Assembly: GCA_022241785.1 (NCBI GenBank)
Contig: JAKOMP010000004.1
Coordinates: 66-64,065, forward strand
Origin: Cyanocohniella sp. LLY
GTDB taxonomy: Bacteria > Cyanobacteriota > Cyanobacteriia > Cyanobacteriales > Nostocaceae
DNA: 64,000 nucleotides
Reading direction: 5' to 3'
Part shown: positions 24,532-31,267 of the stretch, one piece after another
Layout: every line of letters starts with the position of its first letter
How positions within the stretch are numbered: position 1 is the first letter of the stretch
Made by a program: the position numbers and the translations under genes
The notes under the pieces: generated by a model
The model's database searches: none
What the model was told of the DNA's origin: nothing
What the model saw: only the letters and a program-made list of their open reading frames with translations

Positions 24532-25317
24532 GTGAAACCACAGAGATACGGAGAGAATAATTGGTTAGCGTTAGAAATTGGTAATTCCCGGTTACATTGG
24601 GCATTATTTACAGGGAAAACCCTAAAACATACTTGGGATACTGACCATATAGCTGAGTCGGTCATACAGCAAATACCCCAACGTCTAACCGTAGATAATT
24701 TACCCCCAGAAATTTTTTCTCCCCATCTCCCCATCCTCCTCTCCTCAGTTGTTCCCAGTCAAACTGCACTTTGGCAAACATATCCTCACATTCAAGTCGT
24801 TAGTTTAGACCACATACCACTCTTAAATGTTTATCCCACATTGGGAATTGACCGTGCTTTGGCTTTGTGGGGTGCTGGCAAAACTTGGGGTTTTCCCATG
24901 CTGGTAATTGATGCTGGGACAGCCTTAACTTTTACAGGTGCGGATGCTAATCAATGTTTAGTGGGAGGCGCAATTCTACCGGGATTGGGTTTACAGTTGG
25001 CGACGCTGGGGCAAAAAACCGGACAATTACCACAAATAGAAACAGAAATTTTGACTTTACCTCCACGTTTTGCCTTGAATACATCAGAGGCTATTCAAAG
25101 TGGAGTTATCTATACTTTATTGGCGGGAATCAAAGATTTTATTTTAGCTTGGTGGGAATTATTTCCTGAAAGTAAAATTGTGATTAAAGGAGGCGATCGC
25201 TTGTTCATATACAACTATTTTCAGTTACATTTTCCAGAAATTGCTACTCGGTTAATTGTGGAACCAAACTTAATTTTTTGGGGTATGCGGGAAATATTTA
25301 CAGATAAGTTTGTTTAG
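24532..25317 (+). CDS. coaX: Type III pantothenate kinase
   Basis: This 261-residue ASKHA-fold enzyme phosphorylates pantothenate in the first step of coenzyme A synthesis. Motifs are [15 protein letters not shown] (phosphate 1), [13 protein letters not shown], and [11 protein letters not shown] (catalytic Asp). The start codon is GTG. It is divergent from flv3 across 110 bp. A dispersed inverted repeat lies just downstream. Confidence 0.88.
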
Positions 25318-25342: not shown

Positions 25343-25425
25343 TGTAAATAATTAAAATTTTGTAGTGAGGACTTTAGTCCTCAAATAAGAGCTGAAGCTA
25401 CGAAATGAATTTTAATTATTTTACA
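25343..25425. repeat. Dispersed inverted repeat between coaX and the Zorya-like operon
   Basis: TGTAAATAATTAAAATT (from 25343) is repeated in inverted form at 25408-25425, and the centre holds GAGGACTTTAGTCCTC. A related AAGGACTTTAGTCCTT motif recurs at 62806-62821, so this is a dispersed repeat. No direct target duplication is visible. It may end both converging transcripts. Confidence 0.7.
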
Positions 25426-25492: not shown

Positions 25493-26890
25493 TCAATGTT
25501 GCTTGTTCATATAGAGTCTAGCATCCCTTTCTAAATATTCAATTTCTCTTCTCCACAGTTCTAGCTTGTGTTCTCTTTCTTGCAATTGAGATGCTGTCGG
25601 GTTTCCGGAATATTGGGTATTTGGATTAGGCAAAATTCCATGATTTGCCAGCCAGGTATGGGAAAAGACTTGCCAAAGATATACATGATCGTGCTTCTCG
25701 CCACCCAGAAAACGAATCTGTTTGACTGAAAGTGTTGATTCACCAAAAAGAATTTGCTGATTTTTGGGATTATTAGGAAACAGGCGTATCTCACTACCTT
25801 TTCCACGAAAAAATTCGACTACAAACCACTCACCAAAATCAAATATACAAACCTCTGTAGAGTCACTCCCATCATCCTCCAATAAATCAACATCACCTTG
25901 GATTTGATAACTTATAGCAAGTTGTGATGTTTTAGGTAACAAAATACGAAGCCGTTCAAAATTGTTACTGTAGTTAGCCCAAAACTTACTACGGCTACGT
26001 AAACGATTTGCCTCGAAATCTTGTAAAGGGAGCCTGCTTAATATTAAACTAACTAACTTTTGGAAATCACCATAATTAATACCACCAATCCATTCTCGAA
26101 GTCTTTGTCTTGCTGGGTCTGAAAGTTTGTACCAATTTTCACCTTGTCTATATTTAGTTCGTAACCAATCCACCAATAAATAATGATTGGATGTTATTGT
26201 GTTAGAAACATTACTTAGTAAATAATCAACCGCTTTTATCTGCTGAATATCTGACATTTCATCTAAACAACTTAGCAACCATCTTATTTCTTGTTGGCTG
26301 GGAGAATTAATTGTTGTAAAATATGGTGAGATTTCTTCTACAAAATTGCTAAACAATGGAATCCAAATAGGTAAATCTTTTCGGATTAAATTTACTAATT
26401 TAGTTTGATTCACAGAGTGATTACAACTAATTTTTGCTAACTGTCTACTTGGTTGCTGATTACGAAGTGCCAGAATAATTTGAACTGATAGCAAATTACT
26501 AACTAATTTAGAATTAGCAAAAATATCAAAACTTTCAGATAAAGACTGTGCTAATATCTGTTCTTTCTGACCACTATGATAAAGAGCTAAACGCCATAAT
26601 AGCTGATGTTGTAACCATGAACTAGAAATTGCTACCTTCCAAATTTCTGCTGATGTTTTTCTACATTGTCCAATATTTTGCTGATCCCACTGTGCTTTAG
26701 CATGGATACAGTAAACCCAGTCCAAATGACTTATTTTATCAGCTTTACCCTGTTCAATAGCCGCCAATACTAGATCAACATTTGGCATTGATATAGTTTC
26801 TTCTGGTAAGTTACTTGCAAGCTGAATCAGTTGATTAGGAATACACGGGGGAGTTTCAGGTAGAGAAGGAAAAGAAAATTGCAAATTCAA
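25493..26890 (-). CDS. zorC: ZorC-like (EH_Signature-type) protein
   Basis: The 465-residue protein is soluble and mostly helical. Its C-terminal half carries a pattern I associate with the EH_Signature family that includes ZorC: RSRSKFWANYSNNFERLRIL, then VCIFDFGEWFVVEFF with conserved Glu, and later HDHVYLWQVF with conserved His. In Zorya type I, ZorC works with the ZorAB motor and binds DNA. The start is TTG, supported by AAAGGAG 8 nt upstream. It is 13 bp downstream of zorB and is the last gene of the operon; no ZorD helicase/nuclease gene follows. The family call is from memory of the pattern. Confidence 0.6.
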   Translation of the reverse strand: MNLQFSFPSLPETPPCIPNQLIQLASNLPEETISMPNVDLVLAAIEQGKADKISHLDWVYCIHAKAQWDQQNIGQCRKTSAEIWKVAISSSWLQHQLLWRLALYHSGQKEQILAQSLSESFDIFANSKLVSNLLSVQIILALRNQQPSRQLAKISCNHSVNQTKLVNLIRKDLPIWIPLFSNFVEEISPYFTTINSPSQQEIRWLLSCLDEMSDIQQIKAVDYLLSNVSNTITSNHYLLVDWLRTKYRQGENWYKLSDPARQRLREWIGGINYGDFQKLVSLILSRLPLQDFEANRLRSRSKFWANYSNNFERLRILLPKTSQLAISYQIQGDVDLLEDDGSDSTEVCIFDFGEWFVVEFFRGKGSEIRLFPNNPKNQQILFGESTLSVKQIRFLGGEKHDHVYLWQVFSHTWLANHGILPNPNTQYSGNPTASQLQEREHKLELWRREIEYLERDARLYMNKQH

Positions 26891-26903
26891 GATTGTTGCT
26901 CCT

Positions 26904-27557
26904 TTACAAAGAAGTTTTATTAATATCTTTATTTAATTCATCACTACGAAACTGAAAACGGAAAACTACCTTGCGATCGCCTGGATTATCCCGACTCTGA
27001 TCAGATTCAATTTCTCCACGACCAGCAGCTAATATTTTCTGGCTTAAAGATGTTTTTGTAGGAAAATTTATGTCAGAGAAAATGTATTTATGAACTGATG
27101 CAGACCTCATTACACTCAGTTCGAGATTTATTTGTTCATCTCCTTCTGAGCTAGTATGACCTTCTATAACTACACGGCTAATTTCCTGCTCAAATTCTGG
27201 TCTGGAGAAAATTACCCCACTGTAAACGGGAACAAAACTGCGTAGAAAGGCTTTACCCTCTGGTTTTAATTCTGTGCTTCCTTTAGCAAACAGAATCGAT
27301 TCTTGGATACTGATATCCCCGGTTTCTGGGTTGACTTTGACATTGATATTGTTGCTTTTCATTTCTCCTACGACATTACCAATTACTAATCTTTTAGGCA
27401 CATCTTTCTCCGCAAGCTGGAGTAGAGCAGTGATGAATAACAAGGCAAAAAACATCAATAAACCAGACATCAAATCGCCAATAGATAGATAGATATTAGA
27501 ATCATCATCCTCTATGATTTCAACATCGCTTTCATTTATGGTAAAATCATCTATCAT
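26904..27557 (-). CDS. zorB: ZorB-like MotB/OmpA motor subunit
   Basis: The 217-residue protein has an acidic cytoplasmic N-terminus, one transmembrane helix with a conserved Asp at its start (D28 in SIGDLMSGLLMFFALLF, the proton- or ion-coupling residue of MotB/ZorB), and a periplasmic OmpA-like peptidoglycan-binding domain (VVIEGHTSSEGDEQINLEL, then MRSASVHKYIF). Its ATG lies inside the end of the upstream zorA gene (11-bp overlap), so the two are translationally coupled, as in motor pairs. It would be the stator anchor of the complex. Confidence 0.78.
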   Translation of the reverse strand: MIDDFTINESDVEIIEDDDSNIYLSIGDLMSGLLMFFALLFITALLQLAEKDVPKRLVIGNVVGEMKSNNINVKVNPETGDISIQESILFAKGSTELKPEGKAFLRSFVPVYSGVIFSRPEFEQEISRVVIEGHTSSEGDEQINLELSVMRSASVHKYIFSDINFPTKTSLSQKILAAGRGEIESDQSRDNPGDRKVVFRFQFRSDELNKDINKTSL

Positions 27558-29838
27558 TGCTTTGATTATTATTCAAGTGGCGGGTATCATGTGCAGCAAC
27601 TAGAACTTTTGCTGTTTCTAGTAAACCTCCACAAACCCTAGTCATAGAAGTATCTGCTTGTTGGAAAAAGTTTACCTGTAAATCAACGGTCTTTTGCATA
27701 GAAACTTCAAGATGACTTTGCCAAGCATGAAGGCTATCATCAAATTTTCGATTCAAATTGCTGTATGAACTGTCAACCTTTTCTACTTGCTCCCCAATAC
27801 CACGCGCCAGATTTTCTAGTTGTATTAGTCGTTGTGAATCGTTTAATCCAGCAGCACTAACTAATTTGTTAATTTGTTCGACAGTCATCTGAATTTTACT
27901 CATACTTTTTTCTACTTCTTGAGTCAATTCACTCCGTCTTTGGCATTCATCTCGGAACACCTTATCAAGATGGTTTACAACCCCAGATAATCCATCCCTT
28001 TGTTCGCCTAGTGTCCCTTCCAATAAGTTGTTTTGTTGTTCAAAAAACTTCTGTAAATTCGCTTGATATTCTTGCCGAAATTTGGTCAAATCTTCCTCTA
28101 CTGTTTTACGGGTAGCTGTGAGTTTTGTGTCGATATTTCCTAAAGTAGATAGAAGATTATCCTTCGCATCATTCATCAATCCAGAAGCTTGCTCACCCAC
28201 TGTTTTTAGAGTATTAGTTTGCTCATGAAAAGTTCTATTTGCTTGAGTGAGAATGTGGATAATTCCATTTTGAGTAGCTTGCAGCATCTGCTGTTCTACT
28301 ACGGCGCGTTCTTGTAGTGCTGTTTGCAATTCTTCTCGGATTCCACGGAAGGTAGCAGCAGCTTGGACTGCACTTGCTTCAAAAACACTTCTTTGAGCTG
28401 TCAATCCTTTGATACTCTGATCTACAGCTTGATTAATTTCCTGGGCTGTTTGTTGTAAAACTCCCGTAGTTTCAGTTTGAAATTGGCTTAAAGTGTGTCC
28501 CATAGCGTTAGCAAAGCCTTGCAGCATCTGCTGTTCTACTACGGCGCGTTCTTGTAGTGCTGTTTGCAATTCTTCTCGGATTCCACGGAAGGTAGCAGCA
28601 GCTTGAACTGCACTTGTTTCAAAAGCAGTTCTTTGGGCTGTCAATCCCTGGATACTCTGATCTACAGCGCGATTAATTTCGTGGGCTGTTTGTTGTAAAA
28701 CACCTTTTGTATCTGTTTGAAATTGATTGAGAGTGTCTCCCAAATTATGTGCAAAGCCTTGGAGTTCTATCAAAGTCTCTTTTTGAAAATTCTGAATTGT
28801 CAGGATAGAACTTGCCAAACTTTGAGAGATCCCACCGAGTTCCTGATGTAGTGTCAAAACTGCTGTAGAAGCTTGCTGGGTTAACTCCGCACTTTTATCT
28901 AATCGATCTGCAATTGGTTCGAGTACCTGGATTCGTAAATCTTTAATGAGTTCTTCTAAAACTCTCTGTCCTTGATTTTCTTGGAGTTCCCGAAGTCTTT
29001 TCTGTTCTTTAAATATTGCTTCCAATCCTGGAAAAATTTGCTGCTTGACAGATTGTCCAATAGCTTGGGCTGATAACTGATTTAAGCCTGTGAACTGTTC
29101 TGCAATACTTCTACCAACAGCTTGACCAATTTCTGTTGCATTTAGCTGTTTTAACCCAGTCAAATTTTTTGCTACAAGACTCAGTGCTTCAAAGACTTCA
29201 TGATTCCCATTATCTACCGTTTTTAAAGTTGCAATATTCTCTAATTTCTGGCGTAAACTATCACGCCCTTGCTGTCGTCGCCAATCACATCCAAACAAAA
29301 CTAGAGTAAACAAACTACCAGAACCAAGTCCCATCAAGGAAGTAGAAAAAGCTGTTGTCATGCCTTGCAGTAGCCCTGTACTGGCATTCATCAATTCTTG
29401 AGAATTTTCTGTAGATAAATTAATTCCTTGGAGTCCCTTTTGTATGCCGTAAAATGTTCCTAAAACGCCGATAGCAGTACATAATGTTGTTACAAAACGC
29501 AAGGAAGTTCGAGGTATGGGGCGGGCTAAAACAGATGGATACTTTATAAGTACAAATTTGTTATCATTTTGTGCAATGTTTTGACGAATTTTTTTAACAT
29601 CATCTGTTCCTAAATGTGTTTTTAACCAGCGACTAACTCTGTTTAAGTTATTGAAATTTTTACCGTTTTGCAACTTGCTCAAAAATCGAATTGAAGCTTG
29701 AGTTTCACCACATTCTGAATGTAAATACCACCATACTGTATAAATTTCAACAACAATTGCAACTATCAATACAAAGGCAATTGCCCAATGAAAAGGTTCA
29801 TTATCCCAAATAATGTTCCAAAATTTTGCTATTTCCAC
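27547..29838 (-). CDS. zorA: ZorA-like MotA-type motor subunit with long coiled-coil tail
   Basis: The 763-residue protein has membrane helices at about 17-38, 114-134 (TLCTAIGVLGTFYGIQKGL) and 150-180 (GLLQGMTTAFSTSLMGLG). The GMxTAFxTSxxGL motif is that of ZorA and related MotA/ExbB proteins. Residues about 195-763 form a very long Gln/Glu-rich coiled-coil tail, expected in the cytoplasm. In Zorya, ZorA5B2 motors sense phage entry and the tail is needed for defence. The tail contains an internal 80-residue tandem duplication, nearly identical at DNA level. The start codon is GTG. It is downstream of an unknown 118-residue gene by 25 bp. Confidence 0.78.
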   Translation of the reverse strand: MEIAKFWNIIWDNEPFHWAIAFVLIVAIVVEIYTVWWYLHSECGETQASIRFLSKLQNGKNFNNLNRVSRWLKTHLGTDDVKKIRQNIAQNDNKFVLIKYPSVLARPIPRTSLRFVTTLCTAIGVLGTFYGIQKGLQGINLSTENSQELMNASTGLLQGMTTAFSTSLMGLGSGSLFTLVLFGCDWRRQQGRDSLRQKLENIATLKTVDNGNHEVFEALSLVAKNLTGLKQLNATEIGQAVGRSIAEQFTGLNQLSAQAIGQSVKQQIFPGLEAIFKEQKRLRELQENQGQRVLEELIKDLRIQVLEPIADRLDKSAELTQQASTAVLTLHQELGGISQSLASSILTIQNFQKETLIELQGFAHNLGDTLNQFQTDTKGVLQQTAHEINRAVDQSIQGLTAQRTAFETSAVQAAATFRGIREELQTALQERAVVEQQMLQGFANAMGHTLSQFQTETTGVLQQTAQEINQAVDQSIKGLTAQRSVFEASAVQAAATFRGIREELQTALQERAVVEQQMLQATQNGIIHILTQANRTFHEQTNTLKTVGEQASGLMNDAKDNLLSTLGNIDTKLTATRKTVEEDLTKFRQEYQANLQKFFEQQNNLLEGTLGEQRDGLSGVVNHLDKVFRDECQRRSELTQEVEKSMSKIQMTVEQINKLVSAAGLNDSQRLIQLENLARGIGEQVEKVDSSYSNLNRKFDDSLHAWQSHLEVSMQKTVDLQVNFFQQADTSMTRVCGGLLETAKVLVAAHDTRHLNNNQSNDR
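28278..28757 (-). repeat. 240-bp tandem duplication inside the zorA-like tail
   Basis: Two units with a period of exactly 240 bp (80 codons) are present. An 88-bp stretch is identical in both (28278-28365 and 28518-28605), and the remainder differs at scattered bases. In protein terms AAATFRGIREELQTALQERA appears twice 80 residues apart. Confidence 0.9.
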
Positions 29839-29863
29839 ACTGCACCCTGATAGTTTATCTTGG

Positions 29864-30220
29864 TTATTTCTGTTTAAATTTTGCTAATTCTTGATCCGTC
29901 AGAACTTTTTCAGCTGTCCGTATTGGCAAATGTTCTGCATATAAACGGTTTCCTATAGGTTCCCGGAGACATAAACTGTAAAGTCGTTCACCCTCTACTT
30001 CTGTGTCCTCCATGAGATAAACCTTTTCTGGTGCATAGTTTCGCAACAAACGAACCTGCAAACAGGTTTTTAAATCTCGTGAAGAAATAGATAAAGGTGA
30101 ATTGTGTCCAAATAATTCACCAGCCGCTTTCCAAGCGTGGTTAATAACCACAATCTCCTTAACCAATGTCTCTACAGAGGGGTACAATAGTTCAGAAGTT
30201 TTATCAATCAATGCTTTCAC
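29864..30220 (-). CDS. Unknown small protein at the head of the Zorya-like operon
   Basis: I do not recognise this 118-residue protein. It is soluble, with an N-terminal helical part (SVETLVKEIVVINHAWKAAG) and a mixed C-terminal part (RNYAPEKVYLMEDTEVEGER). It has no membrane segment and no nuclease or NTPase motif. The start is GTG. The stop codon is 25 bp before the zorA-like start and all four genes run the same way, so it is probably a component or regulator of the same system. Confidence 0.65.
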   Translation of the reverse strand: MKALIDKTSELLYPSVETLVKEIVVINHAWKAAGELFGHNSPLSISSRDLKTCLQVRLLRNYAPEKVYLMEDTEVEGERLYSLCLREPIGNRLYAEHLPIRTAEKVLTDQELAKFKQK

Positions 30221-30382: not shown

Positions 30383-30419
30383 ATAAAAATATCCCCGGCT
30401 TATTGCATAAGTCGGGGAT
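30383..30419 (-). terminator. Intrinsic terminator between the hydrolase gene and the Zorya-like operon
   Basis: A 13-bp stem, ATCCCCGACTTAT/ATAAGCCGGGGAT with one G-T pair and a 3-base loop on the minus strand, is followed by ATTTTTATTTG. It lies just past the alpha/beta hydrolase gene and separates it from the operon starting at 30220. Confidence 0.85.
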
Positions 30420-30448: not shown

Positions 30449-31267
30449 TCACAGATAATTGCTATCAACAAAATCTCTAATATCCTCAACTACAACCCCA
30501 GTACAAGATTCAGATAAATCATTACCTGCGTGAGCAATTATTTTCAAATCGACTTTAGGAATTAGTTGAGTGTAAGTTTGACTTCTAACTACATCATCTA
30601 ATAAAGCTTGACCGCCTTGCAAAATTAAAACGGGAACTTCCATTAAATGTAATCGGCTGTTCAATAATTCTGCTTCAATTTCCGACTGTCTTCGTTGGAA
30701 TAGTAATTGACAAGCAGTGGGATATTGCAGCAACCTCTGATGCACACTCCAGTCTTTTTCTATTTTGTTTTGCCATCCCAGTTTTTTAATTACCGGATGA
30801 AGCAACTTTAATATTTTCAATAATAGTGGTGGACGATTTAATAATGTCCGCATCTTCTGCCAATTTTTTTCTTGTCCATCTATCCCCACACCTTCTGGTG
30901 ATAGTAAGACTAAACCAGCAATTTGTTCTGGATACTTTAAAGCATAACTAGCAGCAATCCAACCTCCAATAGAATATCCTACTAGATATACTTTCTCTAA
31001 CTTAACAGCTTGCAAGAACTCAGCAATAGACTCTACCTGTAGATCAATTGAATAATGAATTTTAGGATTTTCTGATTCACCAAATCCCAATAAATCTGGT
31101 GCTAAACAATGAAATTTTTCCGATAATGATTTCATCACCGATACCCATTGACTGCTATCGTTCCAAGGCCCATGCAAAAAAATGATAGGAATGCCTTCCC
31201 CAGCTTCACGCCAAAATAATAGCCCTTGAGAGAGTTTCCTCCGGGAGTTCCGAAATAGGATATCCAT
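30449..31267 (-). CDS. Alpha/beta hydrolase
   Basis: This 272-residue enzyme has the alpha/beta hydrolase layout: oxyanion region FLHGPWNDSSQW, acid loop LLGFGESENP, nucleophile elbow VGYSIGG with Ser99, and a C-terminal His in IIAHAGND. The substrate is unknown. It is transcribed in the same direction as the Nudix gene 58 bp upstream and ends at a strong terminator. Confidence 0.85.
   Translation of the reverse strand: MDILFRNSRRKLSQGLLFWREAGEGIPIIFLHGPWNDSSQWVSVMKSLSEKFHCLAPDLLGFGESENPKIHYSIDLQVESIAEFLQAVKLEKVYLVGYSIGGWIAASYALKYPEQIAGLVLLSPEGVGIDGQEKNWQKMRTLLNRPPLLLKILKLLHPVIKKLGWQNKIEKDWSVHQRLLQYPTACQLLFQRRQSEIEAELLNSRLHLMEVPVLILQGGQALLDDVVRSQTYTQLIPKVDLKIIAHAGNDLSESCTGVVVEDIRDFVDSNYL

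Follow-up and report, generated by a model that had tools for sequence, protein, structure and literature searches.

A ZorD-less, Zorya-like operon with an additional gene, X, in Cyanocohniella sp. LLY, and its relatives in cyanobacteria and Vibrionaceae

How can a Zorya system be built when ZorD is missing from it? This question is raised by a four-gene operon at positions 25493-30220 of a 64,000-nucleotide stretch of the genome of Cyanocohniella sp. LLY (contig JAKOMP010000004.1, positions 66 to 64,065; this whole stretch is hereafter the window), which encodes a small unnamed protein, here called X, followed by ZorA, ZorB and ZorC. A Zorya type is recognised by the components attached to its ZorAB motor. 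If an ABC set without a detectable ZorD is natural and widely kept, an effector or a coupling part should have been missed, because ABC without D did not defend in the type I system tested (PMC11890865); X is the obvious candidate. The question therefore becomes a sharp one: does X or ZorC do the job of ZorD? A first reading of the bare sequence (the sequence-only reading) had left three options, namely a distinct Zorya class, a system that borrows its effector in trans, and a MotAB-type complex with another role. The features on which the argument depends are as follows, with lengths in amino acids (aa) and base pairs (bp).

29864..30220, minus strand: X, unnamed protein of 118 aa, first gene of the operon (open reading frame)
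27547..29838, minus strand: ZorA, MotA-like motor subunit with a long cytoplasmic tail, 763 aa (PADLOC PDLC00597)
28278..28725, minus strand: tandem duplication in the ZorA tail, 240-bp period (80 codons), 1.9 copies (Tandem Repeats Finder)
26904..27557, minus strand: ZorB, MotB-like, with an OmpA-type domain, 217 aa (PADLOC PDLC00609 and Pfam OmpA)
27474..27476, minus strand: codon of the ZorB motor aspartate D28 (alignment of X-linked ZorBs)
25493..26890, minus strand: ZorC, EH_Signature protein, 465 aa (PADLOC PDLC00618, Pfam and fold match)
25853..25855, minus strand: codon of ZorC E346 (alignment)
25814..25816, minus strand: codon of ZorC E359 (alignment)
25685..25690, minus strand: codons of ZorC D401-H402 (alignment)

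The operon is probably a ZorD-less class of Zorya, X-ZorABC, in which X would stand in the place of ZorD and ZorC, perhaps a catalytic protein, would be the DNA-facing effector. We are considerably more confident that it represents a real D-less Zorya variant in which X is a component and which has an anti-phage role.

A Zorya motor and its unnamed first gene

The list of open reading frames (ORFs) agrees with the sequence-only reading, which had described four same-strand genes with gaps of 25, -11 and 13 bp: at 25493-30220 there are four minus-strand ORFs of 118, 763, 217 and 465 aa in the order X, zorA, zorB, zorC, zorB overlapping zorA by 11 bp. The last three had been called a ZorA-like MotA protein, a ZorB-like MotB/OmpA protein with the motor Asp D28 and a protein with ZorC/EH_Signature features. 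The profile searches proposed for checking these identities matched each of them to a PADLOC model, ZorA to ZorA1 at 1032 bits, ZorB to ZorB1 at 242 bits and ZorC to ZorC1 at 576 bits. In Pfam, OmpA in ZorB (expectation value, E, 3.6e-9) and EH_Signature in ZorC (1.2e-36) were over their cut-offs and MotA_ExbB on ZorA was under it (0.0018), while the Zorya models of NCBIfam, those of ZorA included, were matched only far under their cut-offs (for ZorB, 39 bits with ZorB1, whose cut-off is 400). Since PADLOC models already match ZorA, ZorB and ZorC, these genes of the branch may already be reported as type I or under the relaxed PADLOC 'other' rule, which is described in PMC8565338.

Where, then, does the novelty lie? 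It is X, which is in no searched library and has no confident fold, and yet is tied to ZorABC. The member in the window has no match in Pfam, PADLOC, NCBIfam or PHROGs. When 37 X members were compared with PHROGs, 18 weak families appeared, each in at most two members (best E 0.024), and one divergent member hit Agenet in Pfam at E 0.066, short of the cut-off. No match was obtained by hhalign between X and ZorD, ZorE, ZorF or ZorG (the latter two from Azoarcus), or the 321-aa Vibrio protein described below. The AlphaFold2 model of X (mean predicted local distance difference test score, pLDDT, 93.5; predicted template modelling score, pTM, 0.85) consists of a helical hairpin (residues 16-37 and 42-62), three beta strands and two short C-terminal helices. 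Comparison with Protein Data Bank (PDB) structures by Foldseek gave a best E of 0.41 and with BFVD 0.089, and PDB sequences gave one insignificant designed protein only; fold searches without a confident match do not by themselves establish a new fold. A likeness to CBS-CP12 (best Z score 5.3 by VIA-align, over a 49-residue helical hairpin) was judged to be a common hairpin. N27, K31, K51, Q55, H97 and P99 are invariant in all 69 distinct X rows (95-160 aa), and the ratio of nonsynonymous to synonymous substitution rates of X, 0.16-0.34 in four comparisons, indicates purifying selection, under which all four operon genes stand near the window.

Might X itself be the effector, toxic or nucleolytic and kept inactive by ZorABC? 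That X is small, is the extra gene of systems without ZorD and keeps the polar residues N27, K31, K51, Q55 and H97 in 69 of 69 rows would suit such a role. However, X matches no toxin or nuclease family or fold, and copies of X persist without visible ABC in Anabaena L140 and genome G155, a poor fit to a free toxin, though these copies are fragments. We regard X as effector as clearly unlikely.

ZorB places the operon among Zorya systems and at the same time apart from type I. The D28 column holds Asp in 61 of 61 distinct X-linked ZorB rows (200-260 aa), and the Asp residues of type I, II and III ZorBs align in the same column. In a ZorB tree of 32 rows, 19 X-linked rows lie on one side of a branch with support 97/99 and four type I ABCD rows on another branch (99/94); in this tree the long branches of types I and III come together, and its deep joins are unsafe. 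As judged from these alignments, the sampled X-linked ZorBs appear to form a branch of their own, apart from the ABCD systems. Does the operon then merely represent a type I Zorya that has decayed by loss of zorD? Broken-looking copies do exist (L055, L057, L058, L097, L112 and L139, some perhaps by assembly error), but the ZorD-less state occurs in two phyla, the sampled ZorBs sit on one branch away from ABCD systems and the four genes are under purifying selection, so that decay is the most improbable of the explanations considered here.

Some X-linked loci vary in the motor itself. ZorA reaches 839 aa among the named X-linked loci, and the length of its tail may vary by units such as the 80-codon duplication seen in the window. 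Four loci (L129, L134, L135 and L137) have two tandem zorB genes inside one X-ZorABC operon, in the order X-A-B-B-C, which could give ZorB heterodimers.

Coupling of X to ZorABC

How strictly does X accompany ZorABC? Among 386 cyanobacterial genomes, the ZorC profile matches 32, of which 29 are clear and three weak ones (E 1.9e-5 to 4.2e-4) were set aside. X matches 24 genomes, and 23 of these also have ZorC; the hypergeometric chance of this co-occurrence, uncorrected for kinship, is 2e-30. X without ZorC is found in G155 alone, in a partial form. ZorC without X is represented by fragments (G042 and G235), by an ABC set with a short ZorA (G121) and by lone ZorC (G039, G203 and G354). The lone ZorC-like genes (L047, L048 and L050), which belong to one cyanobacterial genus, share their neighbours and have no ZorA or ZorB match nearby. 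X was present in 21 of 29 fetched neighbourhoods, and the link of X with ZorABC survives reordering, because X sits before zorA in 16 of them and after zorC in five.

The same company is kept on a larger scale. A scan of 84,980 species genomes with one X peptide pattern, a set that shares species with the 386-genome sample, yielded 52 loci, of which 48 are cyanobacterial, one comes from a metagenome-assembled genome labelled Tatlockia (L125), one from Shewanella (L141) and two from Vibrio (L142 and L144). X lies beside zorA in 44 of these loci (gaps -38 to 284 bp) and beside zorC in five (14 to 98 bp), on the same strand in both cases and with the type II genes of L142 and L144, to which we return below, left out of the count; the remaining three (L131, L138 and L140) are fragments or remnants. 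The Tatlockia-labelled contig, possibly mis-binned, encodes X and ZorA, its X being 52% identical to that of the window. In plasmid records X occurs once, in Nostoc sp. HK-01, with ABC beside it. In phage records no X was found, and none of 14 pattern matches in IMG/VR was confirmed.

Is there a fifth gene? The sequence-only reading had proposed a neighbourhood survey, and for this we took, on either side of 32 chosen loci, the two closest genes encoding 120 aa or more (proteins over 1250 aa dropped, 124 proteins in total). No recurrent flanking partner appeared among them, the commonest Pfam family being Uma2 in five of the 124 (E 1e-6). Two Nostoc loci have a gene for a 949-aa helicase immediately downstream of X-ZorABC (L109:14939-17788 and L147:9466-12315); in the second of them, on the HK-01 plasmid, an annotated DNA modification enzyme comes next. 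That X is nearly always present while ZorD is missing points to a class of Zorya with a weapon yet to be discovered.

The search for ZorD beyond the operon, and ZorC as a candidate effector

If ZorD is not in the operon, is it encoded at another place? Whole genomes were searched for the 24 X-bearing cyanobacteria, for Shewanella and for two Vibrio, and the other 20 X-bearing Vibrionaceae were covered by fetched stretches. In none of these 27 genomes (24 cyanobacterial and three gammaproteobacterial) was a full-length ZorD found. With a ZorD of Polaromonas as query (1259 aa, from an annotated locus with zorA, OmpA-family, EH-signature and SNF2 genes), every match in the 24 cyanobacteria fell within residues 566-1128, the helicase region, and none in 1-565 or 1129-1259, with best E values per genome from 1.8e-67 to 2.5e-56. 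The genome of the window, in which the sequence-only reading had called for such a search, was matched at residues 581-1089, in the helicase region only. ZorD of E. coli (1082 aa), which as a positive control matched the Polaromonas plasmid over residues 63-1077, matched the genome of the window at 552-1064, that of Shewanella at 559-1065 and the two Vibrio genomes with X-ZorABC over 135 residues only (903-1037).

An initial ZorD profile search of the genome of the window gave matches on three contigs. Two were rejected as ZorD, being SNF2 helicases with DUF3670 that match in the helicase region only, and the third, which matches DpdE, was likewise rejected. This DpdE, of the Dpd DNA-modification system, is encoded at L068:4225-7530 (G000:C149) and scores 795 bits. 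The ZorD1 profile matches 8 of 14 control genomes as well; since no other part of ZorD was matched and controls match too, the presence of SNF2-type matches is uninformative.

These data bear directly on the idea that the effector acts in trans, X-ZorABC being a sensor and recruiter and X an adaptor that calls a chromosomal SNF2 helicase or another nuclease instead of ZorD. All 24 X-bearing cyanobacteria do have proteins matching the helicase region, and 17 Vibrionaceae loci carry a ZorE gene in the same array. But the helicase-region proteins match no other part of ZorD and are paralleled in the controls, the two Vibrio genomes match the E. coli protein over a short segment only, and full-length ZorE, found among the 27 genomes only in the two Vibrio, occurs neither in the 24 cyanobacteria nor in Shewanella. 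A borrowed effector thus seems to us rather unlikely. Cyanobacterial ZorE matches are short HNH-core or C-terminal stretches, and the genome of the window has two stretches only, of at most 111 residues; ORFs and PADLOC gave no ZorE in its operon either. A genome search for DUF3348 (ZorF) gave no match, though no control genome matched either, so that this negative carries little weight, and Pfam gave no match to DUF3348 or DUF2894 among the four operon proteins.

Can ZorC take over? Its AlphaFold2 model (23 rows, pLDDT 86.5, pTM 0.69) matches the solved ZorC structure 8r68 with a Z score of 14.4 over 345 residues (35-424; root-mean-square deviation 9.2, 12% identity), though the tool warns that mainly helical models can by chance reach values as high as about 13-14; the next-best structure has a Z score of 6.5. 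With Foldseek alone 8r68 was not among the 50 best rows, and a sequence search against PDB found no relative. The conserved residues were read from 55 distinct X-linked ZorC rows of 440-820 aa, 24 of them gammaproteobacterial, fragments having been dropped by length. E346 is Glu in all 55, and N, D, N and N in four ZorD-partnered rows. E359 is Glu in all 55 and in all four ZorD-partnered rows, and its counterpart in the E. coli plasmid ZorC is residue 400; we take it to be the EH-signature Glu. Tests of ZorC E400 and H443 are reported to have been made by Hu et al. (Nature, 2025). D401-H402 is DH in 55 of 55 X-linked rows and not DH in the ZorD-partnered ones, a comparison made with four ABCD ZorCs only and across a gapped region. 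Thus, of the set E346, E359, D401 and H402, only E359 is common to the X-linked and the four ZorD-partnered ZorCs. In the model, E346 immediately precedes strand 347-351, E359 belongs to strand 355-360, and strand 398-401 ends with D401. The changed site, with E346, D401 and H402 in place of other residues, is, as a pattern of aligned residues, a lead.

How might such a system work? ZorA5B2 is described in PMC11890865 and PMC12904381 as an ion-driven motor bound to peptidoglycan, in which the ZorA tail is needed and which has ZorC and ZorD recruited to it. By analogy with known Zorya, ZorA5B2 of X-ZorABC would be an ion-driven rotor held to peptidoglycan by ZorB; a phage disturbing the envelope would trigger it, and the signal would run down the ZorA tail. 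X might then replace ZorD as the cytoplasmic partner that couples this tail to ZorC. We place it in the coupling position because the X-bearing genomes tested yielded no D but do have X. ZorC would be the DNA-facing effector, possibly catalytic through E346, E359, D401 and H402; it is assigned this role because its site has more conserved residues than that of the four ABCD systems. Both the defence role and the chemistry of X-ZorABC are thus inferred ones. That ZorC, rather than X or a protein in trans, is the final effector is a possibility to which we give somewhat less than even chances.

Double-motor arrays, the insertion site and the known Zorya types

Why should two phage-sensing motors be wired into one array? 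This question is raised by Vibrionaceae. In 329 genomes of this family, to which G399 (the source of Vibrio locus L142) belongs, X was found in 22 and the ZorC profile in 23, one of the latter at E 9.9e-4 and with seven stops; the 22 clear ZorC genomes are the 22 X genomes (chance 1e-34, uncorrected). At 17 of 23 Vibrionaceae X loci, X comes immediately after a same-strand zorA2-zorB2-zorE set, the gaps being -7 to 161 bp. These joined loci are L206-L220 (15 loci), L142 and L144, ZorE of the last two being confirmed by the genome search; two of the 17 are cut off by contig edges, and in one zorB and zorC are 2.5 kb apart. The type II proteins of L142 score 953 (ZorA2), 348 (ZorB2) and 534 bits (ZorE2) with PADLOC, and a type I restriction gene is shown downstream in 13 joined loci, L142 among them. 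A gene of the Cas_NE0113 family (1.9e-38) lies between parts of a joined array at L212:13759-14907.

The remaining six X loci (L217:11387-19081 and L221-L225, continued in L226-L231) have another arrangement: X-ZorA-ZorB-ZorC is followed by a second ZorA-ZorB pair, a protein of 321-331 aa and an OmpA-type ZorB-like protein, PADLOC having been run on L223. Pfam gave no match for this protein in L223 or L228 (321 and 331 aa). No ZorD and no ZorE of their own were seen in the stretches read from these six loci, L217 adjoining an array with ZorE. Compared with cyanobacterial ZorCs, several of those from Vibrionaceae are longer, reaching 798 aa.

X-ZorABC in Vibrionaceae is part of double-motor arrays. 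The module is joined there to motors accompanied by a nuclease of their own (ZorE) or by the 321-aa protein, which would fit an ability to share effectors. The most extended reading, which we hold only tentatively, takes X-ZorABC as a self-sufficient fourth class of Zorya, with X substituting for ZorD and with a nuclease residing in the EH domain of ZorC itself (E346, E359, D401 and H402). In Vibrionaceae this class would be built into double-motor defence arrays (ZorA2-ZorB2-ZorE-X-ZorA-ZorB-ZorC, or X-ZorA-ZorB-ZorC-ZorA'-ZorB'-unknown-ZorB''), where two membrane motors would report to one shared effector set.

At the site in the window itself, the surroundings are as listed here.

30449-31267, minus strand: alpha/beta hydrolase (Pfam), neighbour on the X side
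24532-25317, plus strand: gene labelled coaX (name adopted from the sequence-only reading), neighbour on the zorC side
25346..25421, strand not given: element 3' of zorC like a miniature inverted-repeat transposable element (MITE), with perfect 14-nt inverted arms at 25346-25359 and 25408-25421

Between the coaX-labelled gene and the hydrolase, ORFs and family profiles show no ZorD, ZorE, ZorF or ZorG gene on either side of the operon, as had been claimed from the letters alone. The inverted repeat noticed downstream of zorC is present; because the 97 bases around it have 47 matches in the genome of the window, we reread it as a MITE-like element outside the operon system. The hydrolase upstream is real, and the terminator placed beside it is readable as a terminator-like hairpin (stem about 30391-30419, T-rich on the minus strand), which a hairpin scanner did not list.

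X-ZorABC at this site is a one-operon insertion: in 12 of 20 relatives, the genome of the window excluded, the coaX-labelled gene and the hydrolase are at most 600 bp apart without the operon. One of the twelve, G068, has X-ZorABC at another place, and in the other eight relatives the hydrolase was not seen in a short flank of 1.5 kb. The X remnants of L138 and L140 lie between ORFs that match in length, and only lengths were compared, those flanking the intact ABC-X copy L116.

Could the genes form a MotAB-type complex that has nothing to do with defence, for example in envelope stress? The cyanobacterial neighbours do vary and offer no common partner. On the other hand, ZorC agrees with both the Zorya model and the solved ZorC fold, the distribution is patchy (24 of 386 cyanobacteria), the site is empty in 12 of 20 relatives, one copy of the operon is plasmid-borne, and in Vibrionaceae the operon is arrayed with Zorya II and restriction genes. 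We find a non-defence role very improbable, and the third option of the sequence-only reading is weakened by the ZorC match and by these arrays. Its first option, the distinct class, is favoured, as X is conserved and nearly exclusively Zor-linked, ZorB has its own branch and no full-length ZorD was found in the 24 cyanobacteria.

Several points, besides the cautions given above on the Z score and on the DH columns, weigh against the reading of the operon as a ZorD-less class with ZorC as effector. In the type I Zorya tested, deletion of each component abolished defence and ABC alone was insufficient (PMC11890865). In 17 Vibrionaceae loci the nuclease gene zorE is part of the array. A profile comparison of X-linked ZorC with E. 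coli ZorC was not significant, and the ZorCs of L142 and L206 are without Pfam EH_Signature, although the PADLOC ZorC model still gives them 223 and 222 bits; Pfam does find the domain in those of L141, L207 and L213. X matches no nuclease fold by Foldseek on PDB, VIA-align or BFVD. Three of the 23 cyanobacterial genomes sharing X and ZorC (G022, G305 and G382) have only partial ZorC matches. Defence genes are sparse around the 32 surveyed loci, no PADLOC family occurring in more than two of the 124 flanking proteins (E 1e-20). Finally, we know of no phage assay for the X-ZorABC class.

Has such a system been described before? In titles, abstract beginnings and passages of the literature on Zorya, ZorC and EH_Signature, no description of a ZorD-less, X-linked Zorya was found, nor in the parts seen of PMC12939059, PMC12505986, PMC12458937, PMC13192584 and PMC12409362. 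Type III was itself defined by gene association of this kind (PMC8565338).

How, then, does X-ZorABC compare with the known types? With type III (ZorABFG) it shares a ZorAB motor accompanied by two extra genes, but DUF3348 and DUF2894 do not occur among the operon proteins and neither ZorF nor ZorG of Azoarcus is matched by the X profile. With type II (ZorABE), which as described in PMC11890865 has no ZorC, it shares the ZorAB motor, and in 17 Vibrionaceae loci it is physically joined to it; the operon in the window, however, is without ZorE, of which its genome has no full-length copy, and X is found beside ZorABC only. It comes closest to type I (ZorABCD) in having ZorA, ZorB and ZorC in the same order, the motor Asp and the ZorC fold (Z score 14.4 to 8r68). 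From type I it differs in that ZorD is missing and X is added, in that its sampled ZorBs lie on a separate branch, and in that X-linked ZorC carries E346 and D401-H402, which the four ABCD ZorCs do not.

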